Below are positions 36,356 through 54,506 of a stretch of 64,000 nt of DNA, one piece after another. The translations under genes and the position numbers were made by a program. The stretch lies in contig CAJQUW010005296.1 of the NCBI GenBank assembly GCA_907163375.1, positions 372,001 through 436,000 on the forward strand. Direction: 5' to 3'. The notes beneath the pieces were generated by a model. The model ran no database searches. It saw only the letters and a program-made list of their open reading frames with translations, and had not been told where the DNA came from. The first letter of the stretch is position 1; each line of letters starts with the position of its first letter. This stretch comes from Prostheceraeus crozeri (lineage: Eukaryota > Platyhelminthes > Polycladida > Euryleptidae).

Positions 36356-36793
36356 AGTTCTTTTAAAATGCAATACATGGCAGGGACTCAAGAAGTTTCG
36401 TGTCTGACAGTGGCCGCGATTTAAATTCGCGGTTCCGCCTTTATTCACGATTGCAGAAATATTTCATTTACGATGAATCAGGATGAACGATTTATATTGA
36501 TCAAGATATGTAAGTCAGTGCCGAGAGTTGTCAATGTTTCTAACCTATGACGTTCTGCTGAAGTTGCACATGCACCATTCTGGCAGTGGAAAGAGAGAAT
36601 AATGCACAGATTGGTTTTCGGCATTTAGTTTTCATAAGACGTAACTGCTTACTATGCCCAAATGAATGCCCCCTATATCATAAACTTTTGAAAGTATAGA
36701 GAACTAGCATCTAATACATTAATGAATGACCGTTTTGAATACACAATTTTCGGACTTATATTCAAAGTGAATATCCATTTGAACACAGCTGTC

Positions 36794-37161
36794 AGTAGTA
36801 TATAGTGTGACATCCGGCGCGACGCTTCGCTTCGCTTTGCTTCGCTTCGCTTGCGCCGGATGTCACACTTTTGCGGGTTTTTTCAAAAAAACAAAATTTC
36901 AAAAATTTCAAAAATTTAGGTAGACTTCAAATTTCACGTGGCCGAAGGCCGAAGGGCGAAAATTTAAGCGTTTTTAAAAATACCCAATTTTTCAAATTTT
37001 TCAAAATCTCAAATTTGAGAATTACAATTTTTACCTTGAAAATCATGACCGTTCCAGGACACCGAAAATCATAAAAGTTGAGAATTTCAAATTCATGAAT
37101 TTTATCCATCTTTCAGGTTTTTAAAATATATCATGTGACTAAAAATATTTCTTTAAGAATG
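36794..37161. repeat. Polinton left terminal inverted repeat (368 bp)
   Basis: Matches the right repeat with few visible differences, except that it has one copy of a 78-bp segment present twice on the right. Contains a GC-rich hairpin 11 bp from the end and AAATTTTT-type tracts. Confidence 0.95.
36805..36868. repeat. GC-rich subterminal palindrome, left
   Basis: Perfect 16-bp arms GTGTGACATCCGGCGC (36,805-36,820) and complement (36,853-36,868) around a 32-nt loop of GCTTC-type pentamer repeats. It is mirrored at the right end. Confidence 0.95.
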
Positions 37162-37429
37162 TAACACAATCTCTTTGTATGCCCGTTATTGTTACTAAGC
37201 TTTGCACTCTGATGAACCACCCAAATTGTAGGGAACAGCTGCTCCCGCATACATGATATAATTGCAGCTGCTTATCGCATTCCTGAGCCATTGAATTACA
37301 GAGCAAGCAACCCGTATTAAAGATTAAAGATTAAAATGACGTTGAATATATTGCAGCATGTAGGAAGTAAGACTTCATTTACAATTCCATTAATCATAAC
37401 TAGTGACTGTTTTCTTTCTTCATTGCAAA

Positions 37430-38033
37430 ATGCCAAAACGTACTGCCGCGGAAGCTTTTTCGTTTTACATGCCGATTTTACTAAACTTAATTAAGAAGAG
37501 CAGAAGGAAACTGCGAATAAATACTTTGAAGAGTGGAAGTTAGAAATTCAATCGAGAAAGAAGAACAAATTGGACTCTCAAAAACAAGTGGAGGATATTA
37601 CAGTAAAAATAGAACAGTATCTGACCACTACTACAATTCCTCAGTTCAATGTTACAAAAGAACATTTCATTACCATCGAAGATAGTGCTACTATGATTTC
37701 AAAACTGATTGCAAGTGATAAAGTGCACCATGGGTCGTTGCTGAGAAGTGCTGCTTATCAAGGTTATGGATTTAAAAGAATTCTGGAATTGAGTGACAAT
37801 AAAAAAACAGATTTGTGGAAAACTTGGAACTATTTAGAATTTCCTATAACGTAAGTTATTGTTATTTCTTGATGACCTTATCAGATCTAAATCTACCACA
37901 CGTATTATTTTTAAATTCATCAATGCCCATTAGTTTTGTTAGAAAACATTTTAAAGAAATCAAAATTTATATAGAAAAATTGTATCAACCGACAACTATA
38001 GAAGAAATGAGGTTTGGTTCCCAAGAAGAATGA
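37430..38033 (+). pseudogene. Polinton gene of unknown function, predicted intron, broken 5' part
   Basis: An ATG at 37,430 opens MPKRTAAEAFSFYM, then the coding signal moves to another frame with an in-frame TAA near 37,490, continuing through KYFEEWKLEIQSRKK and LDSQKQVEDITVK. At 37,851 a consensus donor GTAAGT and at 37,942 an acceptor TTTTGTTAG define a 92-bp intron whose removal keeps the frame into KHFKEIKIYIEKL and a stop at 38,031-38,033. The product would be charged and helical, lying first in the element. The N-terminus faintly recalls HMG-type boxes, but I make no functional call. Confidence 0.55.
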
Positions 38034-38469
38034 ACATTAACTGTGTTGTTTCACTTTTTAAGATATGTGCAATGTACATACATATTTGATGTATACATAT
38101 TTATGAATACTTCTTTATAAGTAGTAACACATTTTGGATTATTTTGAAATGTAATTCTATTTTCTTTTGTTCTCCAGTCTCATGGTAGAAGACTGACATT
38201 GTATAGATCTATATTTCAGTATGTAACATAATCTTTGGTATTTAAGAATGATTCATGGAACTTAGTAGTATTGCATTTTGGATTATTTTGAAATGTAATT
38301 CAATTTTCTTTTGTTCTCCAGTCTCATGGTAGAAGACTGAGATTGTACAATTGTATGATAAGATTGATTGTTGTATTATTATATTTGATGCAAAATACAC
38401 TGCCGTTGTTTTCATTTTTCTGTACAAGAAGTAGACATTATTACAGTTATTGGAATTTATTTCATTTAA
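38034..38469. repeat. noncoding stretch with a 144-bp direct duplication
   Basis: 38,129-38,205 and 38,273-38,349 are near-identical (TTGGATTATTTTGAAATG, TTTTGTTCTCCAGTCTCATG, AGAAGACTGA). No gene. Confidence 0.8.
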
Positions 38470-38680
38470 AATGAATGATGAAAATCCGACAGTTATACTG
38501 AGTAATATAGGCGATATATGTCCTCAGGTTAATAACATGACTGAGTTTTTAAAAATAAACAGCAAACAAAACCACGTCAAATTTCGATTTAAATGAGATT
38601 GCTAAGCAATTGGGAATAAAGAATTTTCACATATTGATGAGTAATGAATTACTATTGATTAAAGATGTACGAAACAATAA
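38470..38680 (+). pseudogene. truncated duplicate of the protease gene 5' part
   Basis: Encodes, in two frames, a version of the start of the protease at 38,977: MTEFLKINSK then TTSNFDLNEIAKQLGIKNFH, compared with TTTNFDLKKIAYELGIKNFH in the intact gene. The match stops before the catalytic His; a 1-nt shift separates the two blocks. Confidence 0.85.
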
Positions 38681-38776
38681 CTCTACTAATAAAATGTACG
38701 AAACACTAACTCTACTAATAAAATGTAACAATGTAACGTTTTAATTTAGATTAAATTAAATCATTTCAAAATCGAA

Positions 38777-38937
38777 TAAGTAGTAAGGAAAGACATCATT
38801 AGAGAGCAGTTTTAAATCAATACCCCCCAAGTAGTAAGGAAAGTCATCATTATGAAACAGTTTTAAATCAATACCCCCCAAGTAGTAAGGAAAGTCATCA
38901 TTAGAGAACAGTTTTAAATCAATACCCCCTCCCTTCT
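38777..38937. repeat. three direct copies of a 51-52-bp unit
   Basis: Units contain AAGTAGTAAGGAAAG, CATCATTA and CAGTTTTAAATCAATACC followed by a C run. They end about 40 bp before the protease ATG and may be leader or promoter sequence. Confidence 0.88.
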
Positions 38938-38976
38938 GTCTTCTAGGGGTCCCTTAAGAAATTTTATTATTATAAA

Positions 38977-39468
38977 ATGAGCAACATAAAGGAGTTTTTT
39001 AAATTATATGGAGCGCAAACCACGACAAATTTCGACCTAAAGAAAATCGCATATGAATTAGGAATAAAGAATTTTCATGTTCTAATGAGAGCCGAATTAC
39101 AATTCCTAAAAAATAAGCCAACAGGAACCTTCAGTTCCCGGAACAAAGTTCCATCAATAACTATAAATTTCATAACAAATCTTCATACGTCAGATGAAAA
39201 AGGAATACATTGGTCTGCAGGTATCTTTAATAAAAATCGAGATAATTACTATTTCGACCGCCCGGAGGCTGAGAATTATTATTTTGACTCATACGGACTT
39301 CCACCTACAAACGAAGTCAAAAAATTACTTGGCAATGGTATTTATAATGCATTTCAAATTCAAAAACCAGGAACTACTTATTGTGGTCAATTATGTCTTT
39401 ATGTTTTATTTAAATTACAGGAAGGAGTACCATTTCTAGATATTATGTTAGAATTGAACGAACCGTAG
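38977..39468 (+). CDS. adenain-like C5 cysteine protease (virion maturation)
   Basis: 163 codons, open. The catalytic order of the adenovirus/Polinton protease is present: His in HWSAG (about residue 78), Asp in YFDSYGLPP (about 108), Gln in FQIQ, and the nucleophile in TTYCGQLCLYVLFK (about 138). Length is typical for Polinton proteases, shorter than adenain. It would cleave capsid precursors in assembling virions. A pair of GC-rich hairpins (39,124-39,152) lies in the segment before the catalytic His, and another pair follows the stop. A truncated duplicate precedes it at 38,470. Confidence 0.93.
   Translation: MSNIKEFFKLYGAQTTTNFDLKKIAYELGIKNFHVLMRAELQFLKNKPTGTFSSRNKVPSITINFITNLHTSDEKGIHWSAGIFNKNRDNYYFDRPEAENYYFDSYGLPPTNEVKKLLGNGIYNAFQIQKPGTTYCGQLCLYVLFKLQEGVPFLDIMLELNEP
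39124..39152. repeat. paired hairpins inside protease gene
   Basis: GGAAC-cttca-GTTCC (39,124-39,138), then GGAAC-aaa-GTTCC (39,140-39,152). Translated as part of the protein. Confidence 0.85.
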
Positions 39469-39475
39469 GTTCTAT

Positions 39476-39505
39476 GGCTACGCCTAACAAGGGAATTTCA
39501 TTCCC
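39476..39505. repeat. paired hairpins just after protease stop
   Basis: GGC-tac-GCC (39,476-39,484), then GGGAAT-ttc-ATTCCC (39,491-39,505). Same two-hairpin, 3-nt-loop plan as others in this element. Confidence 0.8.
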
Positions 39506-39542
39506 GAAACGTTAGTTCCGATAATAATGATAATAATGATAA

Positions 39543-40372
39543 TTAAAAATCAGTTCGTTGTAATTCATTTTGATAAAAACGGCCTCTGATATCCTCATTA
39601 TCTAAATCTTTAATTTCATAAGTAATCGGATAAGTTTGATTTATTTTAAAAATTTCAAATATTTCTTCAGTCCAATAGCCAACAAAGCCTTTTTCAAATT
39701 TATTCTTATATTTAAATATTCTAACTCTATCTCCAATTTTAAATTTCGGCTTAAGTTTCTGCAAATTTGGATTACTCTCATTCGAATAATTATTCTCGAA
39801 TATTTTTTTTCTTATCAAATCAGGGTCGTCAGAAGCATTCTTTGGAGTTTCTTCAATACCAGAATGAACTTTATTATTGTACTCTTCTACAACTCCTGGT
39901 AATATCTTCAACCATTTCTGATTTCTTTGCTCAGTAAATTTCTTGAATAATTTATTTTTTAACGTCCGATTGAATCTTTCTATCACTACAGCTTTTCCAG
40001 CGTTTTCAGTTGAATAAACAGTTTCAAATAGTGGCTGAACGTTTCTGTTATAAAATTCCGACCCTTTATCAACAAACAATTTCCTTGGCTTTCTATTACT
40101 TTCTTTAAAGATTTCTTCAAACGCATATTTAACTGATAGACCACTTTTATTTTTTAAAGGCTTTACCCAAGCATATCGGTGTATATAAATCTATAACGGT
40201 CAATGCGTATTTGTAGTCCCTTTCATTCGGCATATGAATAAGATCAGCACTCCAAATATCATCTTTATTAAATACTTTTACTTTCAATAAATATTTAGGC
40301 CTTCTGTATTCTTTATGAATTTCAGACGCGTAGGTTCGAGCGTTGCTCTCAGACAGCTTTTGCTGTCAGTTT
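39543..40372 (-). pseudogene. retroviral-type (rve) integrase, frameshifted, no ATG
   Basis: DDE catalytic core: Asp in DIWSADLIHM (about 40,245), Asp in FVDKGSEFYN and Glu in VIERFNRTLKNKLF, followed by HSGIEETP and a C-terminal chromo/SH3-like segment (FKIGDRVRIFKYKNKFEKGF). It would insert the element and make the 6-bp duplication. A 1-nt shift near 40,179 splits the core. The frame opens at a stop near 40,372 with no ATG before the core, and its start coincides with the paired hairpins that also end the PLA2 frame. An N-terminal zinc-binding domain is not visible. Confidence 0.88.
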
Positions 40373-40850
40373 CATCTATCCCCTGACCGAATAATATTTT
40401 AGCTTGTAAAGCTTTCTTAACAAACATTCTTTCAATTTTTTCTCTAAATGTAGGATTTCGAATACTATCTAATTCTTGAATCATCTTCTTATCAGCTGCA
40501 TGACGAGAACTTAGATCATGATTTCGATAAGCTAAATCATGCCTGTAAGCTGCGGCATCTACTCTATTTATTGTTCTTCACCTGGTTTCGGATTATTATT
40601 CTCATCTAGTCTTATATCTAGTCGAGTTCCTGGACCGGTATATGAATGACCAGGAAGATTTTTTTCTTTCGAATATTTACTCCAAATAAATCCAGGAAAG
40701 TTTTCTAATGTTTTTTGTATGTCACCTCCAATATGCTGACAATTTGAGTTTTTATTTTTGTTTAATAGATAATTCAATAAATCTAAATTACAAATTTTTA
40801 ATTTAATTAAATTTTCGGAATTTGTAGAATTCTTTTTAAAAGATAAAAAA
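40284..40850 (-). pseudogene. parvovirus-type phospholipase A2 domain protein, frameshifted
   Basis: Calcium-binding loop in HSYTGPGTRLDIRLDENN and catalytic dyad in AAYRHDLAYRNHDLSSRHAA, the signature of the PLA2 domain of parvovirus VP1 (Phospholip_A2_4). In parvoviruses this enzyme breaches the endosomal membrane during entry; a similar virion role is inferred here. The two motifs lie in different frames, shifted by 1 nt near 40,575. No ATG precedes the domain; the open frame reaches back toward 40,850, close behind the upstream gene's stop, so fusion to that gene cannot be excluded. The C-terminus is encoded by the hairpin pair at 40,338-40,367. Confidence 0.87.
40338..40367. repeat. paired hairpins at the PLA2/integrase junction
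   Basis: GAGC-gtt-GCTC (40,338-40,348), then GACAGC-tttt-GCTGTC (40,352-40,367). Translated in the PLA2 frame and, in another frame, at the head of the integrase. Confidence 0.85.
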
Positions 40851-40865
40851 AAGGTCCTGAGGTTA

Positions 40866-41348
40866 TTACCGAATCATACTAGGACTTAGATATATTCCAG
40901 AACCATCTTTAGTTTCTTTAATTTCAATTAAATCATCAACATTGTGGAGAATATTTTTAAGAACTCGTTTTCCTTCATCAACTAATTTTAATTTACTAAT
41001 AAAATTATCTACTACTCCTTCACCCCTAGCAACTTTCACTAACTCTCTATTATTACGTTTTTGTTCTTCTAATGCTGCCTTCTCTGATTTATTTTTATTT
41101 ACTGCTTGGACAATACCAGCTGTCCCACCTGCAACACTTCCTGCAGCTGCTATGCCACCTATTATTAGTGGAATTAATGGGAGAATCCCGCCAATCTTTT
41201 CTTCTTGTAATTGAATATTCTCTATCATTGGTTTACTTATGTAATACTTTTTTTTGTTAATCGTAATAGTTTTAGGTGTATTTTTGTCAACAATATTACG
41301 TAATTTTAATTCAACAGTTTTATTATTATTACTTCTCGCTTGCGACAT
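40866..41348 (-). CDS. minor virion protein with glycine-rich hydrophobic segment (pVI-like position)
   Basis: 160 codons, open. A basic N-terminus (NKKKYYISKP) precedes a long hydrophobic Gly/Ala segment (IGGILPLIPLIIGGIAAAGS, residues about 52-75), then a charged helical part and a C-terminal GSGIYLSPSM. Polintons and adintoviruses carry comparable small membrane-active virion proteins next to PLA2; I infer that role from position and composition, not from a recognised domain. Confidence 0.6.
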   Translation of the reverse strand: MSQARSNNNKTVELKLRNIVDKNTPKTITINKKKYYISKPMIENIQLQEEKIGGILPLIPLIIGGIAAAGSVAGGTAGIVQAVNKNKSEKAALEEQKRNNRELVKVARGEGVVDNFISKLKLVDEGKRVLKNILHNVDDLIEIKETKDGSGIYLSPSMIR

Positions 41349-41353
41349 TTTTA

Positions 41354-41490
41354 ATAAAAAAATTTTAAGTTATCAAAAATTTTAATCTATTCTAGTTATG
41401 AAAAATTTTAAGTTAAGAATTTTTAATCTATTCTAGTTATGAAAAAATTTTAAGTTACCAAAAAATTTTAATCTATTCTAGTTATGAAAA
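41354..41490. repeat. three direct copies of a 40-50-bp AT-rich unit
   Basis: TTTTAATCTATTCTAGTTATG recurs with TTTTAAGTTA spacers between the capsid gene and the next gene. Confidence 0.85.
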
Positions 41491-41503
41491 AAATTAATTA
41501 ATC

Positions 41504-41525
41504 GACGAAGTCTTGGGCTTTAGCC
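41504..41525. repeat. paired hairpins over the capsid gene stop codon
   Basis: GAC-gaa-GTC (41,504-41,512), then GGCT-tt-AGCC (41,516-41,525). The stop codon lies within the second stem-loop. Confidence 0.7.
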
Positions 41526-42854
41526 GATCCTAGCCATCTTTCCATTAAGAATTTCAATAGAATATTTTACAAAATCTAGCAATAAACCATAAGCCATCAA
41601 TGAAGTTGTGGAATCTTTTTTTTCAATATTAATTGTTACATCAAAACCAGTCTTGATAATATCTTCAGATTGTGCACTTAAATCGAAACAGAAAACAGGA
41701 TATAAATGTCTCCAATCTCCAGGAGTTAATTGTGGTTCAACTCCAAATTCTATACAGAGATTTTGATAAGAATCATATCCTTCCATAAATTGATTATTGG
41801 TATCATCGAATCTTAATGGATCAATTGGATATCGGGTTTGATTTAATGAAACTTGTAAACTTCGAATTGTATTAATATGGAAGAGATTATTGTTCTTATC
41901 AAAACTTGGAGAATTATTTCTTTGAAATGTTAGTAATAAATATCTTGGAGTATTCGCAGTTCTAGTAAAATGCCAGTTAAATCTTTGTTCGGAAAAAGTT
42001 ACTGAACTAGCAGTACGCTTTAGAAAATTAACTGGAATTGGCTTGTTAGTATTTAATCTTTTTGCAATAGCTGTTTCAATCTCTAAACTAGGAGTAATAT
42101 GCTTAATCCACCATTCAAGTCTATCAATTTTTAGATATGCTTTTTTTTAGTCTTACCAAAAAAGATTAATTCATTATTTGCTGTCCGATGAATTACTAAT
42201 TTAAATTTTAATTGATAAGATATTTTATCATAATCTAAATATCTGAATAATGGAGACAATGACCAATTTACTGTCTGTTTACTTTTATTGTTAAATTCAC
42301 GTCTTTCTTTATATGCATCATTATTTGTTTTATTTAAATGTTTTGCAATATTTTCTACATCTTTCGCAATTCCTGCTGCATCTGTTCCAGCGTGAGTTAA
42401 ATCATCAACAATTATACCATCATTAGTATCAGGAAACCAACCTTCGATTTCATACTTTTTATTATTTTCACCAATTGTTACAAATCTAAGCATTGTATCA
42501 ATTACACCTGGAGAATCACTTATTGTTTCTATATTTTGAGTTGCAACATCTAAACGCATTTGTGTAAATAATTTTTGGAAAAAAATTATTCTCTAATGCA
42601 ATATTATCGGTATCTGGCAATGGTGTTGTAAAATTGGCATCACTATATAAAGAATATTCACAGTGTAAAAATGAATCAGGTAGATATAAAAAACTCTGCT
42701 GATTATCAACTTCAAAAATTAAATCACCTCCAGTATTTACTCTACTGGAAGATCCGGGATTCATAGCAATTCTTATATAGTCATTCTTTTTTTGATTGTA
42801 ACTGACGAACGGAGGATCGTCTAATCTAAATTTATTTTCAATTAGCGAAGACAT
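41520..42854 (-). pseudogene. predicted major capsid protein, two homopolymer frameshifts
   Basis: About 445 codons in three frames. Start MSSLIENKFRLDDPP at 42,854, then YIRIAMNPGSSSRVNTGGD and YLPDSFLHCEYSLYS; later LEWWIKHITPSLE, TARTANTP-like and FMEGYDSYQNL segments. The pattern of an early aromatic-basic motif, a DLIFEV strand and LPDSFLHCEYSL resembles the double-jelly-roll capsid proteins of Polintons (order: charged start, ..YI.., I.F.V.., ..YLDL..). Assignment rests on this, on size and on gene position; structure prediction is needed. 1-nt shifts occur in an A/T run near 42,575 and a T8 run at 42,141-42,148. Confidence 0.62.
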
Positions 42855-42970
42855 TTTTATAAAAAATAATTTGACTTTTTGTTTTTTCTCACACACAGAA
42901 AAAATTTTTGCTAAAACATAATTTTACTAAAAAAATTTTACAAAAAAATAATTTTACTAAAAAATATACT

Positions 42971-43540
42971 TTAGAATTTTGCTAGACCAGCTCCGTTACA
43001 GCTTTGCTGGTTAAACCGAAGGTTGCTACTCACGCCATTTCCTCTTATTTCTTCAATGGAACGTTTTATGGCTACGCCTGATTTCTTCTTATGTTTACTA
43101 TCAGACGGTGCTCCGCTCCTCAAGGTTTCACCCCCTACAGCTATCTTAGCAATTTTATTTTTTGTTTCCTCTGAAAATTTTTTTAAATTTTTTAGTTCTT
43201 CAGAATAATTTCTAAGTTTACGAATAGCTTCTAGTTGTTTTAATTCGCTTTGAGACTTAACAGCATTTGATATTGCACTAGCTGTACTACCTATAGCAGC
43301 TGCTCCTTTTGCAGCAGATGAAATCAAATCTTTATTATTTTTAATTAAGTTAACGATACTTCCAATACCAGAAAAGATGCCAGCTCCTTCTTTTTGAACG
43401 GCACCTGCGGTGGCTAGGAACTTTTGTGTTCCGATTGTTTCTACACTGTCATAATGGTAAACAGATTTCATAGATGGTTCATGAGCAATTTTTTGATTTG
43501 AAGCAAAATGTTTAAGATTGTGTTTATAAATTATAGGCAT
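42971..43540 (-). CDS. small virion-like protein with Gly/Ala amphipathic segment
   Basis: 189 codons, open. Contains GAGIFSGIGSIVNLIKNNKD, a Gly/Ala-rich GAAAIGSTASAISNAV segment, a long charged helix and a basic tail (KHKKKSGVAIKRS). The first half could be membrane-active like adenovirus pVI or VP-type small proteins. No domain recognised. A hairpin pair at 43,402-43,432 encodes part of the N-terminal region and GGC-tac-GCC recurs at 43,070-43,078. Confidence 0.55.
   Translation of the reverse strand: MPIIYKHNLKHFASNQKIAHEPSMKSVYHYDSVETIGTQKFLATAGAVQKEGAGIFSGIGSIVNLIKNNKDLISSAAKGAAAIGSTASAISNAVKSQSELKQLEAIRKLRNYSEELKNLKKFSEETKNKIAKIAVGGETLRSGAPSDSKHKKKSGVAIKRSIEEIRGNGVSSNLRFNQQSCNGAGLAKF
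43402..43432. repeat. paired hairpins inside small virion-like gene
   Basis: CACC-tgc-GGTG (43,402-43,412), then GGAAC-ttttgt-GTTCC (43,417-43,432). Confidence 0.75.
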
Positions 43541-43581
43541 TTTTATGATTAAATTTGACTTTTGGGAAAAATATCTACGTG

Positions 43582-44469
43582 TTAAGATTTACGTTTGTGA
43601 ATGGACAACAACTTCGAGATAACTTTATTAATTGACTGCTGTACTTTATCTATTGCGTCAAGCAGCGTGTGATGTATTTTAATTTCTTTTCTATTAACTT
43701 GCATTTTCTGCTGATTAATCTTCAATGCCGTTTTAAGAGCATTTAACTTTCATTTATGAACATCTAATTGTCTTTTAACAGCATCTAACTGTTCTTTATT
43801 TTCTTTAGAGTTTTCTTGTAAATTTTTCTTTAATTCATTTTCTAAATTGATTTTAAGAGTTTTCATTTTATCAACTTTTTGATTAAGTGAGTTTACTTCA
43901 TTTATTATTCTATTCATCTTTTTCATTTGTTGAGTAATTTTAGAACTTAATTCATCAACACTTTTTTGGAATGTAGCTTGTAACTGCTTTAAATTTTTTT
44001 TAATTCTTTCAGGTAGTTTTTCTATTTCATCTTCTAATTGTTCTTTCAATAGTTGTATCTGATGTTTATTTTTAATGACTGCCGATTTTAACTTTATAGA
44101 AAGTAATATTAAAATTTTTGTTTGTTCAGAAATCTTTTTAAATAGTTTTGCTATATCTGCTTCTAGCTCTCTATCCTTTTTATCAAGTTTTAATAATTTT
44201 TCGTTTAATGATTTGTCATTAAGTTTAAGCAACTTTAATTCATTCATCAGTGGAACCAAAACATCCTTTATATAGTTTTCTTTTAAGTCATTGATTTGTG
44301 TATCAACATATTGTTTATTTGTCAACTCTGTATTTTGTTGCGGAAGAATAGAAAGATGCAATGGACCAGATAAAACGTCTCCAGTTTTCATAATATAATT
44401 TTCTATCTCTATTTCTAATTCACGATTATTCGGGATATATGCACCTCCACCAACATTTGGTAACATCAT
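43582..44469 (-). pseudogene. fibre-like coiled-coil protein with in-frame TGA
   Basis: Start MMLPNVGGGAYIPNN at 44,469. Residues about 30-58 hold MKTGDVLSGPLHL and ELTNKQYVDTQI, the motif of phage tail-fibre shafts (G..MsGpL.L...p....a.nK.YVD). About 200 residues of charged heptad-like coiled coil follow. A TGA at 43,750-43,752 is followed in the same frame by another 56 coiled-coil codons ending at 43,582, so the stop is likely a lesion. By position and motif this is a trimeric receptor-binding or spike-shaft protein; receptor and head domain are not identifiable. Confidence 0.72.
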
Positions 44470-44543
44470 TTTATAACAATAAAAAAAATAAAATTTTTTC
44501 TAATAAAAATAAAAATAATTTTTTTTCTAATAAAAATAAAAAA

Positions 44544-45816
44544 ATGGAAAAACCAAATTTAAGAAAATTATATTCGTCCGCATCATCCTGTTCTTATTAT
44601 TCGACGAGATCAACGGGATTTGATAATAAATGTTTTGATAATAATAATAATAATCCATGTATAGATGTTAATATTTTAATTCAATTACAAGCCGAAATAT
44701 TTAGAGAACAGACTAAAGGTTTACCTTCCATAGAAACTAACTATTGTTTATTTCCAGGAGACCCTTTTATAAAATTTATGGAGATTGTAAGCAAATATAA
44801 TGATGTAGCTTATGTGGAATTAAATAAAGAAAATATGGTTATAATAGGTCATAATAACGTTTATGGATTTATTAGAGCAGTGTTACCAATTAGTAATACT
44901 GAATGGATAGAAAATAAAATTATTAGTTATATCAATATTAAAGAATTAGTTAAAAAATTAAAATCTTTTTCGAAGGAAAAAATTAGATTATTTGTTGATG
45001 AACAAAATTAATATAACATTCACATAGAGAGTAAAAAACATAATGAAGAATTATTATGTTAGGTATATTATAGAGACACAATTTATAAACAAGAAACATT
45101 AGAAATGCCCCAAAGATATGATGATGATACTTATATAGGATTATATTCCAACTTAAATATTAATTTATTAAAATCTTATATAAATGGTTTAACTCAACAA
45201 GAGAAAATTTATATGTGGACTACACCTTATACTATTAACAATGACCATAATCATAATCATAATAATCCTCTGAATCATATTGAAGAATCTTATGATAATA
45301 ATGATGATTCTGAAACACCTGAAAAAGGTGTAAATGGTAAAAAAGATTATAAAAATATTAGTAATTATAAAAAATTTATCTAAATTTCATTTTCTTACAA
45401 TTGAAAATAATAATGATGGTATAGTTGAAGATACTGTTAGACAACTATGTGTCGGGTCTACAAAATTTAAATTAGGATTTACATCTAATCAATTTAAAAT
45501 TTTATCATCTTTAATAAAAACTAAAACTGATTCAGATTATGGTGGTGTTATTAAATTTTCCAAAAGAGATCAAAGACCAATATTTTTCTCTATTATATTA
45601 TTATCAGATAAGAAATGTAATTTAGAATTAGATATTCCTATCAGGGAATGGTATCCTATCAGGGAATGGCATCCTATACCAAAAAGTGTAATTTATGATG
45701 TTGAAGAAACAATTTATGATGATGATGAAGAATCAATTGATGATGATGATGAAGAATCAATAGTTAGTGAAAAAAAATTTAAATTATCTTTTGATAAAAC
45801 TTTGATTAAACTATGA
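44544..45816 (+). pseudogene. unknown Polinton gene with two stops and a shift
   Basis: ATG at 44,544 in an A-rich leader (AAAATAAAAAAATGGAAA) also found before the polymerase gene. 156 codons to a TAA at 45,009, then TAG at 45,060, both in frame with the following MPQRYDDDTYIGLYSNLN segment; a 1-nt shift near 45,350 leads into VRQLCVGSTKFKLGFTSNQF and a repeated REWYPIREWHPIP. The C-terminal part is very acidic (DDDEESIDDDDEES). No family recognised; probably one gene of about 420 codons. Confidence 0.5.
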
Positions 45817-45875
45817 TTAAACTTAATATGATAAAACTTAATATGATAAAACTTAATATGATAAAGAAAATAAAA
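45815..45875. repeat. 17-bp direct repeat, about four copies
   Basis: AACTTAATATGATAAA repeated head to tail at the end of the preceding gene. Confidence 0.85.
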
Positions 45876-46231
45876 TAACTTAGGAACGTGAAATATATAA
45901 TAATATAAAATAACACTCAAGTCCTTGATATTAGAATGTTTATATCTAAAATTAAAACACAATTTTTTCCTTAAAAAATAAAAAAATGGAAAATACCAAG
46001 TTTTATTGTAACTTATGTAAAAAAAAGTTGCAAACAAAAAGAAGTTATCAATCTCATTTGAATAGTAAATTGCATTTACAAAATGTAGAACGAGTTGATG
46101 AAGGAAATATATTAAAATTAAATAGTTATAAAAACTATCTAGAAACATTGCCTACTGATATAAAAGTTAAAAAAATGTTTGATGATTATTCACATTTGGA
46201 ATATAAAAAAGTTTTTAATAGTGAAGATGAA

Positions 46232-46273
46232 CATGTACATGGGACATCGGGGATGTCTTCCAGGGCTTCGCCC
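46232..46273. repeat. triple palindrome in polymerase gene, copy 1
   Basis: CATGTACATG (46,232-46,241), GACATC-ggg-GATGTC (46,243-46,257), GGGC-ttc-GCCC (46,263-46,273). Confidence 0.92.
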
Positions 46274-46391
46274 GCACCAGATGGAAGATATTTATTTAGC
46301 GATACTGATGAATTTAACGAAATAGATGAATTTGATGAAATTAAAAAAACCGATGAAGCGGTAACAGATATAAAATATTTATTTAAACAGT

Positions 46392-46432
46392 CCGTGCACG
46401 GGACATCAAAGATGTCTTCCAGGGCTTCGCCC
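46392..46432. repeat. triple palindrome in polymerase gene, copy 2
   Basis: CCGTGCACGG (46,392-46,401), GACATC-aaa-GATGTC (46,402-46,416), GGGC-ttc-GCCC (46,422-46,432). Same layout and orientation as copy 1; the first palindrome differs by paired changes. Confidence 0.92.
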
Positions 46433-47960
46433 GTTGAACATAATGAAACCGATGAAACTTTTTATAATGTATTAACAAACTTTTATAATATATTTAAGAA
46501 ATCTTTCAAATGTTATATGAATGTAGAAGTACTTTATACAAAAAATGGACATGATGGAATTCCTGAAGAAAAAATACAAGGACATTTTACAAATTCGCAA
46601 GAAATTCATAATGTAAATGATATACAACCCATATTTGAATCGATGATACTTAAATTAGAAAATTGTATAATTGAAGCCCAGTTACGTGAATCTGGTTGGA
46701 GATTTGTTAAAATACTATCTAAGAAAATAGTAAATGATAAATATAAAAATAACACTGTTGGTAGTTATGTTCCTTTGCCTTTCAGTTCACCGCAAATAAT
46801 CAACATAAAAAATGAAGATGATTGTTGTTTTCTGTGGAGTATTATAGCACATTTACATCCTGCAGAATATCACAAAGAAAGACTAAGTCATTATAATAAA
46901 GAAGAATACATAAAGGAATTTAATCTCTCTGATGGCTTACATGAATTTCCATATGATTATAATAGGTTAATAAAGTTTCATAAAAAGAATAAAAATTTAA
47001 TAGAAGTAAATGTTTTTGAATTAAATGTGAATTATGTTTCTATTGGTAAAATTACTCCACTTTACTCAGATTCAAAAAAATTTTATTTGAATAATAAAAA
47101 TTTATGTCAATCAGAAATAGTACATAATGATAGGGGAAATTACATGCATCATAATATTTTTTACCAAGGAAATTTAATATGTACTGAAAAATTTCAAATT
47201 GTTAAAACACTATCACCAATAATGATTAATCATTATAATTATAAAGGACGTAATTATAATTATGATTATGATTCCGATTATTTATCTTTATCTTTAGAAT
47301 ATCAATAAAAATTACAAAATTTAAATGAAAGTTTACAAAAATGTAAAACAGATTATCAACAACAAACAAAAATATTAGTACAAGAATATGGCCATAAATA
47401 TCAAAATAAGATAGAAACGATTCAAAAATTAAATGAAGACAATAAAGAATTAAATAATGAGGAAAATGAAACCAATCAAAAAATAAATGAATCTTTAAAA
47501 AAATGTCTACAACAATATAAAGAACAATATGAATAAAGAATTAGTTATCAGCTACAAATATTAAATCAAAATTTTCATCGAAATACATTTAATCTTGCAA
47601 AAGAAATTGATGAAACACATGAAATATATCAAGATAAATTTGAAAAACTAGAACAGACAAAACAGCCGGCACAAGCGAATATTTTATATTATCAGGGTCA
47701 TTTTATATTGTGTAAAGATGTTTCTATGTTTACAAAAACTTCAGATAATACAAATTTTCCTTGTCTTCAATGTATGACAAGTTTTAGAACTAAAGAAGAA
47801 ATGAATAGACATTTGGAGAATTGTCAACAAAATGAAGCAGTCAGAAACACATTTCCAAAAGATGATTATTTAGAATATAATAAATGGTATTTTAAAAATA
47901 AAGTACCCTTTACTATTTATTGTGATTTTGAAGCATATAATGTTAATATGACACAAAATC

Positions 47961-47986
47961 GAACGGAAAGTTCCAGGGCTTCACCC
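47961..47986. repeat. degenerate hairpin pair in polymerase gene
   Basis: GGAA-ag-TTCC (47,965-47,974), then GGGC-ttc-ACCC with one unpaired position. Confidence 0.6.
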
Positions 47987-49040
47987 GATTCTGAAAATGA
48001 TAATTCTGAAAATGATAATTATGAAAAAAGTGTAGCTGAACAAAGTAAAGAAAAATATTTATTTGAACAAAAACCATTATGTTGGGGAATGTACATTCAT
48101 TCAAATTATCCTGAATTATTTAAATCAGAATATTTTCAATACTATGGTGAAGATAGTTCAGAAATGTTTACAAAGAAAGTAGAAGAATTACAAAATTATT
48201 TTTCACAATTGCTTGAAACAAATATACCAATGATGCCATTAACAGAAAAAGAAAAATTAAATTTTGTTAATGAAACAAATTGTTATTACTGTGGAAAAGA
48301 ATTTGCAAAAAATTATAAAAATGGCAGAGGTAGATATATTGATAAGGTAAAAGATCATGATCATCTAAATGGATTATATAGAGGTGCAGCACATAATTCT
48401 TGTAATCTTAATGCTAATAAATTTAAATATAACTTTTGTTCCTCTATATTTCTATAATGGTTCTAAATATGATTTCCATCTAGTAATGAAAGATTTATTT
48501 CATCTGAAAAATTACAACTACAACAAATAAATGTACTATGTAAAACAGAAGAAGAATATTTTTCAATGCAATTAGGTTGTATTAGAATTTTAGATGCATT
48601 TAGATTTTTTACTCCTTATTCATTAGATGTAATGGGAAAAACTTTGAAACCTGAACAATGTAAAATATTAAATAAATATAATTTAAAACCTTTAAAAGGA
48701 ATATTTCCGTATGAGTACATAACTGGAGATTTTAATTCTGTGAATAAAATTATGGAAGAAAAACAACTTCCTCCAATAAATAAATTTAAATCAACATTAA
48801 AAACAATCACAATTATCTAAAGAAGACTATGCAGAAGCTGAAAAGAATTGGAGAGAGTTAAATTGTAGAACAATGTATGATTATACAATGAAATATCTTC
48901 AGATAGATGTATTAATACTAGCTGATCTTTTCGAAAACTTTCGTGATATGTGTTTAGAATATTACGGAATAGATCCATGTTATTGTTATTCTACACCAGG
49001 TTTAACATGGCTAGCAGGATTAAAACATACTGGTGTTCAA

Positions 49041-49064
49041 GCCGATGGCTCTAGGACAAAGTCC
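49041..49064. repeat. paired hairpins in polymerase gene
   Basis: GCC-gat-GGC (49,041-49,049), then GGAC-aaa-GTCC (49,054-49,064). Located where related polymerases read straight from a GLTWLAGLK-type motif to the next conserved block, so it looks inserted. Confidence 0.78.
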
Positions 49065-49402
49065 GTTAAACTTAAACATTATAAAGAAAATACATATGAT
49101 AAATTATTATTTTTTGAATCTGGAATTAGAGGTGGAGTTTCATCAGTTTTAGGTAATAGATATGTTAAATGTTATAATAAGAAAGTAAATCCACAAGAAT
49201 ATGGAATAATGAAACCTTTATCTCCAGAAGAAAAAGAAAAAATATTAGAAATTTTTCGAACGAAACGAGAAGGAGTAGAACGTGAAAATGCAATTGATGA
49301 ATTCATGAGAGAAAACTATTTGTTATATTATGATTTTAATAGCTTATATTCTTCTTGCATGATACAAGAATTACCAACAGGTGAGATGGAATGGTGTAAT
49401 AT

Positions 49403-49439
49403 TCGTACGACATCAGAGATGTCTACTAGGGCTTCGCCC
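49403..49439. repeat. triple palindrome in polymerase gene, copy 3
   Basis: TCGTACGA (49,403-49,410), overlapping GACATC-aga-GATGTC (49,409-49,423), GGGC-ttc-GCCC (49,429-49,439). Lies just after polymerase motif A. Confidence 0.9.
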
Positions 49440-50622
49440 GTTCTAGATTATCAAAAAACATATGATGGAAAATATAATCATGGTTATATATATGAAGTTG
49501 ATTTAGTATACCCTGATGAAATAAAAGATAAAACAAAATATTTTCCTTTCTGTCCCGAAAACAAAATTCCTAATATAGAAGATTTTTCAGATTATCAAAA
49601 ATCTTTAATTCCTAAGAAATACAGACCAACAAAAAAACTAATGTTAACACAAAGTAATAAAGAAAAGTATGTTGTTGAAGGAAGAATGCTAGATTGGTAT
49701 TTAGATCATGGAATGATTCTCACAAAAATTCACCGGAAACTAGTGTATAGAAAATCTAGGTGGTTAAAAAATTATATAGAGTTCAATATTGAAAAACGCA
49801 AAATAGCTAAAAGAAATAAAGATGATTTTGGAAACGTGTTCTTCAAATTAATGAATAATGCATTTTACGGTAAGACTTTAGAAAATGTGCGTAATAGACA
49901 AAATATTGAAATAGTTTATGATAAAGATAGGTTTCAAAATTTAACAAGGAAACCTACATATAAAAGAACTACTAGATTTAGTGATGAACTATGTGCTGTA
50001 CATTTACGTCGAATCAGCGTAAGACATGATAAGTTTAATTTTATTGGATTCACTATATTAGAATTAGCTTAACTATTTATGTATAGATTTATATATGATT
50101 ATTTAGCACCTGCTTATGGCAAAAACTATAAATTACACTTTACAGATACCGATACACTTGTTAAAAAAATAGATAAAATAAAATATATCATTCATCCTTC
50201 TGATTTATGTAAAGTAAAAGATGAATTAGAAGGAAATGAAGATTTCATAACAGAAGCTATATTTTTAAAATCTAAATGTTACTGTTATGATACAACTAAT
50301 AATATTAAAACACATAAAACATTAAAAGGAATTTCAAAGGCATCAGTGGCTAATCAAATAACATTTCAAGATTATAAAAATGCATTATTTAATAATGAAA
50401 TAAAAACAGCATGTAATTATAGACTTAATTCAAAGAAACATAAAATGTATTTAAAAGAAGAACATAAATTAGCATTAGATCCATTTGATGATAAAAGAAA
50501 AATTTTACCTGATGGAATAACTACTGAACCTTTTTAATTTTCTAATTTCTAAGATAGACAAATTTGATATATACATAAAATAAAAAAAAAATATTATAAC
50601 ACTATATTTGTATATTTTTTTA

Positions 50623-51390
50623 TCACTCGGTAAACAAATCTTCTATAACTCTATCATGAATTTTTTTATCAATATTAATTGTAATGAAGCCATAATCTTT
50701 TGACCAAGCATTGTTACACGATTGTTTAAATTCATCTTTATTTCTTACACATAAATCTCTTAACAAATCACTTAAGTTTCTTGCATTTATTTCAAATAGT
50801 ATAAATATATTTGCATTCTTTCTAATAACACTTCCGTCTAATGAATACATACTTTGTGTTAAATAAAAAACACTACAGTTATTATGTCTACCTCTTGTGA
50901 AATAATTTCTCTGAACTGACTGATTTCTATCATTAACACAATCATCAAAAATTACACAATGTTTCATTGTTTTATCTAGTTTACTAGGATCTTGCATATT
51001 ACCACTATCATCTATTAATTGTATCTTTATATGGTTATTTTTATTAGATTCTACTAACTGATTATTTTTTGCTGCTTCTTCACACCACGAACTTATTTCT
51101 TCTTCATCTTCAGATTTTTCATATTCTTTGAATAATGAAGCAATTGCTGTTTTTTAAAGATTATTTTCAAATCCATATTTTAAAAATTGATAGACGAGTT
51201 GTTCTGCTGTTGTTGTATAAATTATAAGATTGTTATAATCCAAAAAATTTGGAGTAGTTAAAATTTTAAATAATAGATATGTTTTTCCACATCCTGATCT
51301 TCCACAAATAACTGACAAAACTTTATTAGATAAATTTGGATGATGATTAAATTTAAGTTTTTTTTATTTAATGGTAGTACTTCACTCATT
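50623..51390 (-). pseudogene. genome-packaging ATPase (FtsK-HerA/A32 type), two lesions
   Basis: Walker A GRSGCGKTYLL (about 51,300), Walker B HCVIFDDCVND (about 50,950), then FTRGRHNNCSVFYLTQSMYS, the conserved arginine-rich and sensor region of Polinton and NCLDV packaging ATPases. It would pump DNA into capsids. Start ATG at 51,390; a 1-nt shift lies in an A8 run near 51,365, and an in-frame TAA at 51,154-51,156 separates Walker A from B. Otherwise the frame is well preserved. Confidence 0.88.
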
Positions 51391-51439
51391 TTTTAATAAA
51401 AAAATTTTATTTTTATTTTTTTTGTTTCTAAAGAAGAAG

Positions 51440-51495
51440 AAGAAAATTAAACTTCTCTTGCTTCGCGTAGGAGTTTATACCTCTCGAACGGGAGT
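51440..51495. repeat. 25-bp direct repeat between ATPase and penton genes
   Basis: GAGTTTATACCTCTCGAAC occurs twice in tandem (about 51,470-51,519), the second copy inside the 3' end of the penton-like gene. Confidence 0.8.
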
Positions 51496-52284
51496 TTATA
51501 CCTCTCGAACCAAAAGATCTATCATAATCTCTTCACCTCCAAAATTTATTTCTTGTCCTTTTTCATCAGTGATTCTAATGTTAATGTTGTTAATAGTTTT
51601 TCTTGTAATAGGGAAATATATTAATGTTTGTGGAATTACATTTAATCTATAACCAATGGGTACAGTAAAAGCTGGAAAACTGAATATTAAATTTGACAAT
51701 TTACCATTTATATATCCTCCTTCAATAATGTCACAATGTACAACAATTGAATTTATTTCAGTTATTTTTGGAATCTTCTCACCTAAATGATAACCTTGAC
51801 TATAGGTTTGTTTATTAAATCCTAATAGCTTTGACAATGATCTATCATGATTAAAATCAACTTGATGATTTTCGTCTAAAGTAAGAGAAAATTTATTAAC
51901 TGCCGGTTCAACTGCGAAATGTAATTGTTTCTTATCTTTAAATGGTATACCTAAATGTCTCTTAATTTCATTTGATATTGTTTCAACTTCGTAAGAACCA
52001 GGAAGAAAAGTTAGTATTTTCCATGTTTTGCCTTTATCAGTAGAATATCTAAATTGATCATTCACATCTTTTATAACATTTTGAATAGTGTTAAATGTAA
52101 AGAAACTAGTCAATGCAATTTGATAATTTTTATTTTGTTCCAAATGTAGAATGGGTTCTAAATTACAAGTGTGTGATGAAGTAGTTGTTATAATTTCTAA
52201 CGTCGTACTAAATTTTGATGAACCCAAAATCTCTGTCAATTTTTCTAAATGATTATTAATTTTGTCTAAATCTGCTGAACACAT
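51496..52284 (-). CDS. penton-like minor capsid protein
   Basis: 262 codons, open. The Polinton penton-like (single jelly-roll) pattern is clear: YQIALTSFFTFNTI, FLPGSYEVETISNEIKRHL, LSKLLGFNKQTYSQGYH, INSIVVHCDIIEGGYINGKL, FTVPIGYRLNVIP, and the closing INNINIRITDEKGQEINFGG. The family forms the pentameric vertices of virions. Start MCSADLDKINNHL at 52,284. Upstream lie tandem AGATAAAAATCAT repeats (52,310-52,380). Confidence 0.88.
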   Translation of the reverse strand: MCSADLDKINNHLEKLTEILGSSKFSTTLEIITTTSSHTCNLEPILHLEQNKNYQIALTSFFTFNTIQNVIKDVNDQFRYSTDKGKTWKILTFLPGSYEVETISNEIKRHLGIPFKDKKQLHFAVEPAVNKFSLTLDENHQVDFNHDRSLSKLLGFNKQTYSQGYHLGEKIPKITEINSIVVHCDIIEGGYINGKLSNLIFSFPAFTVPIGYRLNVIPQTLIYFPITRKTINNINIRITDEKGQEINFGGEEIMIDLLVREV

Positions 52285-52309
52285 TTTTTAGTTAAAATTT
52301 TGAATAAAT

Positions 52310-52380
52310 ATTATAGATAAAAATCGTAGATAAAAATCATAGATAAAAATCATAAATAAAAATCATAGATAAAAATTAGA
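52310..52380. repeat. AT-rich 16-bp direct repeats
   Basis: Five variants of ATAGATAAAAATCAT directly upstream of the penton-like gene (on its strand); perhaps promoter sequence. Confidence 0.85.
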
Positions 52381-52399
52381 AACAACATATTTCAGCTAC

Positions 52400-52433
52400 G
52401 GGCGAAGCCCTTAAAGACATCAGAGATGTCCGG
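52400..52433. repeat. paired hairpins at the 3' end of a minus-strand gene
   Basis: GGGC-gaa-GCCC (52,400-52,410), GACATC-aga-GATGTC (52,416-52,430), then CCGG. It is the reverse complement of the polymerase-gene copies, matching the opposite direction of this gene. Confidence 0.92.
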
Positions 52434-53243
52434 TTATACTTTTATAATCTTCTTCATTTAGAATCTTCTTTTGTAACAGTCTTTTCAATATAGCATGAGT
52501 TTCATTGAAACTAGAATTATGTCCTTCTTTTATTGCAGATATTAAAATATTTAATCTATTTAGTAATTCTTGTGGATCATCTGGTAAAAATATGGTTGTT
52601 TCTGTTTTCTGTTTTTCAGATAAACCTTTTCCTACTTTAACTCCCGTTGATAATAAATTTTCTAATTCTCTATAACGTTTAAGAGTTTTTCCTGCTTTAA
52701 CTCTATCTAACATAGCTTTATATTTTATGAGATCTTCTACAGCATAATTATTTAAATCTGCTCCTCTTAAAAGATCAACAAAATTTCTATCTAAACTAAA
52801 AGGAGATTTATCTGGTGAAAAAATTAAACCTCGAAAAGGTTGTGGAAATATTTCTTTTTGTCCGAGATAAAATCAAGGTATTGTTTTTCCATCTATAAAT
52901 GAAATAGAATGTTCAAATTACATAGACTTTGGTAATTTCTTATTAATGTTTGATTCTAGTAATCCATAGTCATCTAATATAGATTTTGTGCTCTGGATCT
53001 GTTACATCAATTTGTTTATCATTATTTGTACTTTCTTTTTCAAGAGTTTTAAATGGTTTTCATAGTTTTCTCAAAATCAGTTTTAACTTGCTCGGTTTGC
53101 TGCATTTTTTCAAACATATCAGATTGAATACCAGCTTTTATCATTCTATGTTGAAGATGATTTTCTTTCATAATATTTCTTTGTTTTATTAACTCTTCTA
53201 ATTGTTTTATTCTTTTAAAATTATCAGCTCTAATTTTATCCAT
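52420..53243 (-). pseudogene. unknown conserved-looking Polinton gene, stops and shifts
   Basis: Starts MDKIRADNFKRIKQLEELI at 53,243 with a coiled-coil first part; after shifts near 53,050 and 52,990 it continues in one frame through NFVDLLRGADLNNYAVEDL and ends in a 97-codon open part (MLDRVKAGKTLKRYRELENL). In-frame TAA at 52,918 and TGA at 52,873. The C-terminus and stop are encoded by a hairpin pair. Polintons often hold an unassigned gene here whose product has a G..K..G-type and D...Y...L pattern; I cannot assign function. Confidence 0.55.
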
Positions 53244-53364
53244 TTTTAAAATATAATATTTGAATTTTGTGGTAACATTGGAATACAGCAAAAACATTTT
53301 ACTGTACAAATTATTTTTTTATTGCTTTGTTGTCTGACATCTTTTCGTTTAAAGTTTTCTCGTT

Positions 53365-54081
53365 TTAAGTTTTGTTTAATAAAGTTTTGTTTAATAAAGT
53401 TTTGCTTAAATTTTCGCTTAAAGTTTTTAGCTCTTCTAAAAAAAATTTGTCATTTTCTTCATTAGAAATTTTACCATCACTAGAAATTTTGCCATCCTGT
53501 TTATTCTTATCATCAACTTTTTCGGACTGTAATTGAAAGGTTTGATTTACTTCATTAGCTATTTGATCAAATTTTTCAATCTCATCTAACGTAATAACAT
53601 TATCATCACATACTCTTTGAAAGTAGTAATGTAGTTTATCATAGACTTCTTTAATATGTAAATGCTTAGTTTTTAATGATTTTCGTTTCTTAGTTATTAA
53701 AGATTTATCTAACATTGTAACAAGTGAAGTTGCAAAAACACCCGTACCTGTTAAAGCTGTAGCAACTACTGGAATTACTAAAACACCTGAAGATATAACA
53801 ATAGTGAGAGCGCCTAAACTTATTGTTAAACATGCTCCAACGCCTTGTGTCACATTCTTAGCTATCGTCCATCTCTTTCTTAATTTTTTATAATGCTCTA
53901 ATCTTAATAATAATTGAGATTCCTTATCTTTCATATACCTAACTCTATCTTTGTGTTTTTCTTTGTTCATTTTTTCAATGTCCATTAAAGTAGAACTACG
54001 TTCATATGATAACGAAGGATATATTCCTGCGGTTTCTTCCACTTTTGTTTCTTCCATTTTTAAAGAAATATTTTCAGTCAC
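53365..54081 (-). CDS. two-helix membrane protein, start inside right terminal repeat
   Basis: 238 codons, open. A charged N-terminus (SYERSSTLMDIEKMNKEKH) precedes two adjacent hydrophobic segments (ACLTISLGALTIVISSGVLV; PVVATALTGTGVFATSLV) and a charged helical tail with VCDDNVITLDEIEKF; the end is a tandem LLNKTLLNKT. This layout is a recurrent Polinton protein of unknown role, presumably membrane-active. The first nine codons lie within the right terminal inverted repeat; an alternative start is the Met at 54,057. Confidence 0.72.
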   Translation of the reverse strand: MTENISLKMEETKVEETAGIYPSLSYERSSTLMDIEKMNKEKHKDRVRYMKDKESQLLLRLEHYKKLRKRWTIAKNVTQGVGACLTISLGALTIVISSGVLVIPVVATALTGTGVFATSLVTMLDKSLITKKRKSLKTKHLHIKEVYDKLHYYFQRVCDDNVITLDEIEKFDQIANEVNQTFQLQSEKVDDKNKQDGKISSDGKISNEENDKFFLEELKTLSENLSKTLLNKTLLNKT

Positions 54082-54500
54082 ATGATATATTTTAAAAACC
54101 TGAAAGATGGATAAAATTCATGAATTTGAAGTTCTCAACTTTTATGATTTTCGGTGTCCTGGAACGGTCATGATTTTCAAGGTAAAAATTGTAATTCTCA
54201 AATTTGAGATTCTTAACTTTTATGATTTTCGGTGTCCTGGAACGGTCATGATTTTGGGAGTAAAAATTGTAATTCTCAAATTTGAGATTTTGAAAAATTT
54301 GAAAAATTGGGTATTTTTAAAAACGCTTAAATTTTCGCCCTTCGGCCTTCGGCCACGTGAAATTTGAAGTCCACCTAAATTTTTGAAATTTTTGAAATTT
54401 TGTTTTTTTGAAAAAACCCACAAAAGTGTGACATCCGGCGCAAGCGAAGCGAAGCAAAGCGAAGCGAAGCGTCGCGCCGGATGTCACACTATATACTACT
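54055..54500. repeat. Polinton right terminal inverted repeat (446 bp)
   Basis: Inverted copy of 36,794-37,161 with one extra tandem copy of a 78-bp segment (starts at 54,139 and 54,217, TTTTATGATTTTCGGTGTCC). The GC-rich palindrome is at 54,426-54,489. Confidence 0.95.
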
Positions 54501-54506
54501 GCTGTC

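Follow-up and report, generated by a model that had tools for sequence, protein, structure and literature searches.

The 64,000-nt stretch of the Prostheceraeus crozeri genome considered here (the window; assembly GCA_907163375.1, contig CAJQUW010005296.1, positions 372,001 to 436,000) holds one Polinton, a virus-like transposon of 17.7 kb (36794..54500, no strand assigned), which carries short GC-rich paired hairpins. These hairpins are real, and they are insertions. With a probability of about 0.8, they are non-autonomous mobile DNA elements of 28 or 37 nt, each consisting of a pair of compact hairpins, that have spread through one Polinton family by insertion. Sequence comparison among copies within the genome shows precise insertion, a 2-bp duplication at most testable sites, polymorphism, near confinement to Polintons, nesting, and exchange of the left hairpin, from which we infer that the elements are mobile.

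Paired Hairpins and Element Structure

A preliminary description of the window had listed eleven places in the Polinton with adjacent hairpins, and reading of the sequence bears out all eleven, with weak stems in three. A fixed scan, in which a cluster is two or more hairpins with a gap of at most 8 nt, finds 29 hairpins and 8 clusters in the Polinton part (37300-54050). These clusters are 8 of the eleven places, the others (39,476, 41,504, and 47,961) falling below the scan threshold. Shuffled sequence, which might have given as many paired hairpins, does not: among 200 global and 200 local shuffles the mean number of clusters is 0.015 and 0.04, respectively, with a maximum of 1, and none of either set (0/200 and 0/200) reaches 8. 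The host flanks are at chance level, with 2 clusters in the 36.9 kb to the left (1.3-1.9 expected) and 0 in the 9.6 kb to the right.

The main form of the element, type 1, is 28 nt long and reads C-GAACC-gaa-GGTTC-TA-GGGC-ttc-GCCC-G; type 2, the GACATC form, is 37 nt long and reads CACGGGACATC-nnn-GATGTCTTCCAGGGCTTCGCCCG. In the window, GACATC-type elements of 37 nt occupy site A in the N-terminal part of the polymerase gene polB (46238..46274, plus strand) and site B (46397..46433, plus strand), a further 37-nt element occupies site C (49404..49440, plus strand), and a GACATC-type element lies in reverse at site F (52399..52433, minus strand). Elements of 28 nt are found at site D (47960..47987, plus strand) and, as CAAGCC..GTCCG, at site E (49038..49065, plus strand). 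As first described, GACATC-nnn-GATGTC followed by GGGC-ttc-GCCC is common to the places at 46,232, 46,392, and 49,403, and is reversed at 52,400. The same description proposed a third, variable palindrome in front of these two, with pairing preserved. This three-hairpin architecture is not upheld by allele comparison among copies and is rejected, as other copies lack the first palindrome where the window has it (GGTACACGGG at B, ACCATACATGGG at A). It is mostly flanking DNA, made up of flank, target duplication, and the element's initial letters, and 49,403 is the only site where the first palindrome (CGTACG) belongs to the element.

An identical 28-mer is present among copies at D, s46362, and F; at A, at B, and near 45,277 it has a single difference. 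The elements of E, s48717, and s48728 keep the type-1 layout with other stems, having 19, 12-14, and 14 of 28 letters, respectively, in common with type 1; s48717 alone shows both AGCCtgcGGCT and AACCtgtGGTT. Pairing is found in 92 of 99 stem cells across 11 representative sequences, a number matched by 0 of 5000 shuffles, and a strict 28-nt scan, in which one element may count on both strands, yields 46 hits in ten copies vs. 0 in three rounds of letter-shuffled copies. The elements thus have two adjacent GC-rich hairpins with short loops, one stem of the 22-nt s48330 form being 2 bp. In a list of 26 hairpins with 3-nt loops, compiled by hand, 15 have a GNA loop on one strand vs. 1/8 expected (p 6e-8); a second figure from this list, 14 of 19 stems, varies with the order in which loops were entered and is given no weight. 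Mini-hairpins of DNA with GNA loops and G-C pairs are described as extremely stable to heat and to nucleases (PMC4686876).

Filled and Empty Alleles

The first 1.3 kb of the polymerase region, used as a query, has at least 39 further matches in the same genome (92-97%). Thirty-nine stretches of 6.8 kb were fetched, of which 36 align well, at 95.0-97.6% identity over the fetched stretch; L036, L051, and L052 align poorly and are left out of the allele tables. Unscored in the allele lists are L040 at A, 13 copies at F, and L040, L041, and L044 at B, the last two because the flank failed to map. Hairpin inserts occur at A, B, s46362, s47484, D, s48015, s48330, s48717, s48728, E, C, s50645, and F, and at least 11 sites are polymorphic among the 36 alignable copies, the hairpin element being there or cleanly missing. 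Non-hairpin length differences occur as well, including tandem repeats, larger deletions, and a 22-nt replacement near 49,240.

With the window included, site D is filled in 28 and empty in 9 of 37 copies (exact empty allele in 7), site C is filled in 16 and empty in 21 of 37, and site E is filled in 18 and empty in 18, with 1 unscored. Site A carries type 1 in 27 and type 2 in 9 of 36 scored copies and is empty in 0, and at site B no empty copy was seen among those scored; copy L026 has a 28-nt element there. At F, an empty site or the 28-nt type is found in other copies. Further sites exist beyond those noted at first, missed because the window copy is empty there. These include s48015 (48014..48016, plus strand), where a 28-nt element stands in reverse in 21 copies and 16 are empty; s48717 and s48728 (48717..48730, plus strand), with 28-nt elements in 11 and 10 of 37 copies (11/26 and 10/27 filled/empty in the allele lists) that consist of AGCCtgcGGCT or AACCtgtGGTT followed by CAGTCgaaGACTG; and the intergenic s50645 (50645..50646, plus strand), with a 28-nt element in 10 of 37 copies (10/27), a second element being nested in five. 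Site s48330 is filled in 20 and empty in 17, and an additional element near 45,277 is found in 2 of 7 upstream stretches (L014 and L017).

For the insertion boundaries, exactly matching empty copies were sought for 15 core strings, and pairs were obtained for 9 strings at 8 sites. Six of the 8 sites have a 2-bp A/T duplication: TT at C and E, AT at D (47958-47959 / 47988-47989), s47484, and s50645, and AA at s48330. At the other two, s48717 (ATAT) and the nested insert (AGTC), four letters can slide. A TA duplication, judged by eye, fits s48015 and F. The elements therefore have a target site duplication, as in class II miniature inverted-repeat transposable elements (MITEs), and a short flanking direct repeat, as in yeast GC clusters, here of A/T dinucleotides and not AG; presence or absence varies among close relatives.

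Related proteins agree with the alleles. The alignment of host proteins with relatives that the preliminary description had called for identifies the peptides as insertions without counterpart in relatives P0001, P0121, and P0122. P0001 (77% identical) lacks the peptides of 49,041 and 49,403, and thus those of sites E and C; P0121 (60% identical) lacks those of 46,232 and 46,392, at sites A and B; and P0122 (92%, 40% covered) lacks the 47,961 peptide, near where its own frame runs off. Relative P0023 (95%, 32% covered) carries RSSEMSSRALPV where the window has no insert. At that place all 36 fetched copies are empty, and 9 of 47 placed type-2 copies genome-wide lie nearby (window-equivalent 50,344-50,352).

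Genome-Wide Distribution

The 25-nt type-1 core has 7,150 exact matches in the genome (3619+3531) and the type-2 core 2,231 (1147+1084), with 0 for the reversed control of each. The carrier is likewise abundant: a polymerase landmark with up to 2 mismatches has 2305+2197 matches, or about 4,500 Polinton copies, and the Polinton terminal 16-mer has 3154+3171, most of the listed ends having two. By our own arithmetic, the copies would make up to roughly 4% of the 2.05-Gb genome if all were full length. Element places were inspected as the first in contig order, not at random, comprising 100 of type 1 and, of 100 listed of type 2, the 59 or 40 that the landmark lists reach. Within the span of a Polinton copy with an exact landmark lie 64 of the first 100 type-1 and 47 of 59 type-2 places. 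With end landmarks and 2 kb of slack, 87 of 100 and 36 of 40 are near a Polinton, 13 of these assignments (10 of the 87 and 3 of the 36) resting solely on a distance below 18.5 kb from one Polinton end. Five further places within 3.2 kb of polymerase matches bring the numbers in or beside a Polinton to 90/100 and 38/40, vs. a chance expectation of about 5-10% by coverage. Site C is filled at 493 places (258+235) and empty at 1,803 (928+875); the filled pattern fixes flanks and length range only, and the length at 93 of the 100 listed filled places is that of a 39-nt insert. In viral contigs the exact GACATC pattern and the type-1 core each have 0 matches, and no relatives of polB were confirmed among them; 11 scattered matches of the GACATC pattern in prokaryote contigs are taken as chance.

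Reading Frame and Direction

Total insert lengths in the polymerase gene take three distinct values only, 24, 30, and 39, and are in frame at 11 of 11 sites, those of A and B, where there is no empty copy, being deduced from element length. Since 28+2=30 and 37+2=39, the reading frame is kept. At intergenic and gene-end sites the insert length is 30, or 31 where nested (35 in L047); at F it is 31 or 38. Two of three frames per strand are open in type 1, and all six in type 2. By eye, one codon phase (..SRASP.. or equivalent) is common to the inserts at A, B, C, D, E, s46362, s48717, and s48728; the 22-nt insert is not in the phase common to these eight sense inserts. In-frame insertion into open reading frames (ORFs) in a preferred frame is thus found here, as in Rickettsia palindromic elements (RPE). 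The statement that GACATC copies follow the direction of their gene holds in the genome-wide list, where 44 of 45 type-2 copies placed in single-direction regions are sense and 2 more are placed outside genes; the count was made by hand from approximate positions, with recurrent sites counted repeatedly. By place, about ten distinct sense positions stand against one antisense position (42,857). The frame and direction bias is most simply read as a result of selection for a hydrophilic peptide, with a strand-linked mechanism as a less simple possibility.

Exchange and Recombination among Copies

At A, B, D, and F both types occur at the same position and in the same orientation, with the right half in common; in L026 the element at B has the left half of type 1 and the TTCC right half that type 2 usually carries. 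This double occupancy calls for an exchange of hairpins or for a site that was used more than once. The Polinton copies behave like a freely recombining population in which linkage fades within about 100 bp: among 36 copies and the window (window 45886-52686 and L020-L058), r2 between single-nucleotide polymorphisms (SNPs) is 0.45 within 30 bp and 0.064 at 101-300 bp, with a background of 0.046. Whether an element is present shows hardly any linkage to SNPs, even to the nearest ones, which are few. As the copies recombine, the present mosaic needs no separate insertion per copy.

Relation to Known Mobile Hairpins

Yeast mitochondrial GC clusters (GC42 and others) are likewise short, GC-rich, palindromic, mobile, and polymorphic in AT-rich DNA; they are flanked by direct repeats of 2-3 nt, and their hairpin units merge and shuffle, which the exchange at A, B, D, and F resembles (PMC4478555). 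They differ in being mitochondrial, in having AG or ACT as direct repeats, and in length, GC42 having 42 nt (PMC4478555), whereas the elements here reside in a nuclear virus-like transposon, often in reading frames, beside A/T dinucleotides. Mitochondrial residence is contradicted by the Polinton itself, with its inverted repeats and 6-bp duplication, and by the 436-kb contig. The double-hairpin elements of Allomyces and fission yeast mitochondria and the sponge RHE also consist of adjacent GC-rich hairpins with sporadic distribution, and RHE copies differ by complementary substitutions (PMC10085805, PMC2800124). These mitochondrial elements lie mostly in intergenic regions or rRNA genes and number 1 to 14 in fission yeasts, as compared to thousands of identical cores here.

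RPE are palindromic and inserted in frame in protein genes (PMC10969869), although they are bacterial and about 150 bp long, while the elements here have 28 or 37 nt and reside in a Polinton; the likeness is one of description. The early suggestion of mobile hairpins resembling RPE in principle is supported by relatives without the peptides, clean empty and filled alleles, and in-frame elements. Submariner MITEs of Pandoravirus salinus are also short, non-autonomous, spread inside a viral genome, and flanked by a 2-bp TA duplication; they differ in having 243 bp, terminal inverted repeats of about 100 bp, and a related autonomous transposon in Acanthamoeba (PMC4495683). By the features tested, the elements act like mitochondrial GC clusters or double-hairpin elements and, in coding sequence, like RPE, and are a member of none of these groups. 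No report of such hairpin elements in Polintons was found among the titles and abstract openings of the open-licence papers listed. The byp elements of Magnusiomyces mitochondria are mobile hairpins within coding sequence that the ribosome bypasses; in contrast, insert lengths in the polymerase gene here are multiples of three.

Mobile double hairpins are known from mitochondria, where their mechanism is open. With a nuclear virus-like carrier, one genome supplies filled and empty alleles by the hundreds to thousands, and exact boundaries, duplication size, frame rule, and loop rule together make the mechanism testable.

Proposed Mechanism and Alternatives

Polintons replicate by protein-primed strand displacement, which exposes single strands. 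The elements may be copied or moved as single-stranded DNA (ssDNA) during this replication, where GNA-type loops would stabilize the hairpin. A trans-acting nuclease would cut in a staggered fashion, and the hairpin would be joined into the cut; a possible candidate for this nuclease is the Endonuclease VII-like domain of the polymerase ORF (48239..48415, plus strand; PF02945), a speculative assignment. Endonuclease VII acts on branched DNA. Selection would then filter the insertions in genes, favoring those that keep the frame and encode a hydrophilic peptide (..GSRASP / ..SSRASP), so that the carrier genes would still have been in use after insertion; an in-frame filter implies that Polintons used their genes during hairpin spread. 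A fuller version, put forward tentatively, is that of a 28-nt parasite of a virus-like transposon that moves as an ssDNA hairpin in Polinton replication with the help of a branched-DNA nuclease encoded by the Polinton, and whose length, loops, and peptide are tuned to spare the carrier genes. It is a possibility of similarly limited weight that nuclease resistance of the ssDNA hairpin, and movement in that form alone, are the reason for the restriction to Polintons, which would place the elements among the smallest mobile DNAs. If true, there is a layer of parasitism inside Polintons.

Several observations weigh against mobile insertion as the explanation. Neither a transposase nor an excision product nor a new insertion was observed. 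An exact empty partner was not found for 6 of the 15 core strings (type 2 at D, the second s48717 form, s48015, and three forms of F), 10 of 100 type-1 and 2 of 40 type-2 places have no Polinton assignment, and the hairpins at 39,124 and 43,402 misfit the element model. Two types at one position, at four sites, are not simply explained by independent insertion. Presence at site C is not ordered by the local tree (13 changes vs. a shuffled mean of 12.2); given this disorder and the fading linkage, much of the present filled and empty pattern stems from inter-copy recombination. On the question, raised in the preliminary description, of whether stem differences are compensatory, pairing is retained across sites, and differences on both sides of a pair are found in 3 of 9 pairs, matched by 790 of 5000 shuffles and not significant alone. 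Predicted ssDNA folds consist of the two hairpins with energies that are mildly unusual, at z of -1.2 to -2.7 vs. shuffles. Lastly, the PF02945 match in the polB ORF (E=2.9e-4) scores 21.1 bits, below the cut-off of 23.6, although a precomputed PF02945 annotation is present in relative P0121.

A local origin of the hairpins through template switching during replication (snap-back synthesis) of AT-rich DNA, with spread by recombination only, would draw on the intense recombination among copies, and snap-back correction yields palindromes with compensating stems. The same 28-mer at several sites, the 7,150 genomic matches of its core, and the 2-bp duplication in filled and empty pairs make this very unlikely. 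Still less credit can be given to functional Polinton signals (packaging, recombination, or regulatory marks) held by selection. GC-rich hairpins in AT-rich DNA with a common structure and mostly one direction relative to genes would suit such a role, as would the constant occupation of A and B among scored copies; against it, empty alleles of the other typed sites are found in copies that are 95.0-97.6% identical, and the peptides are missing from the relatives compared. Recombination or packaging marks and RNA structures, both raised in the preliminary description, are less well supported as the primary nature of the hairpins because close copies are polymorphic at most positions and the loops are of a kind that favors ssDNA stability.

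Two further routes of movement are each unlikely, if less so. The sense orientation of 44 of 45 type-2 places, despite a 37-mer open in all six frames, would be accounted for by an RNA route, in which hairpin RNA is reverse-transcribed or insertion is tied to the transcribed strand, and RNA-mediated spread has been suspected for yeast GC clusters (PMC4478555). The common reverse site s48015 (21 of 37 copies) and loops of a kind known to stabilize DNA speak against it, and peptide selection could equally yield the direction bias. Extremely short MITEs that depend on a conventional DNA transposase of the host or the Polinton would explain a 2-bp A/T duplication, which some class II elements share, and TA-duplicating MITEs are known in Pandoravirus (PMC4495683). 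The elements here have two separate hairpins and no end-to-end terminal inverted repeat, and their near confinement to Polintons also speaks against this route; no search was made for a longer transposase-bearing relative.

The Carrier Polinton and Other Features of the Window

The Polinton is delimited by its end sequences, by terminal inverted repeats of ~300 bp (36793-37101 vs. 54193-54501, 96% in an inverted-repeat search), and by the 6-bp target duplication GCTGTC, read directly at 36788-36793 and 54501-54506. Its polymerase part matches DNA_pol_B_2 in a profile search, and the polymerase reading frame of the window copy is broken. Genes for THAP/P-element transposases lie in the window's flanks outside the Polinton; a search with a P-element-like transposase gave 12 hits, the best of those with a named source being from Macrostomum lignano at 43%.

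Additional paired hairpins were characterized from the window sequence only: a type-1-like 27-nt double hairpin with AA/AA flanks at the end of the protease ORF (39459..39485, plus strand), a 24-nt double hairpin with weak stems and AT/AT flanks at the end of the capsid gene region (41503..41526), and one with TT/TT flanks in the integrase region (40337..40369), the latter two without assigned strand. The paired hairpins in the protease ORF (39124..39152) and at 43402..43432, likewise unstranded, were identified by scan and sequence and have provisional boundaries.

Type-1 elements recur as mirror pairs in both end regions of other Polinton copies (for example C33 and C134, at window-equivalent ~37.3 kb and ~54.3 kb), which suggests that the two Polinton ends are kept alike. 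A GC-rich palindrome, GTGTGACATCCGGCGC..GCGCCGGATGTCACAC, stands at each end of the window Polinton (36805-36868 and 54426-54489), the pair being found at most ends listed. Within the Endonuclease VII-like domain, a hypervariable stretch (48290-48360) has a 22-nt hairpin insert in 20 of 37 copies. A tandem repeat of 21 nt at 51466-51512, GGGAGTTTATACCTCCCGAAC, is itself a hairpin, and its number of units ranges from 1 to 7 among copies. A partial duplicate of the beginning of the protease ORF, 73% identical, lies 448 bp upstream of it (38569-38666 vs. 39017-39114). In the left flank, inverted repeats are densely nested at 31056-32727; they reach 514 nt, are 96% complementary, and show a strong and opposite GC skew.

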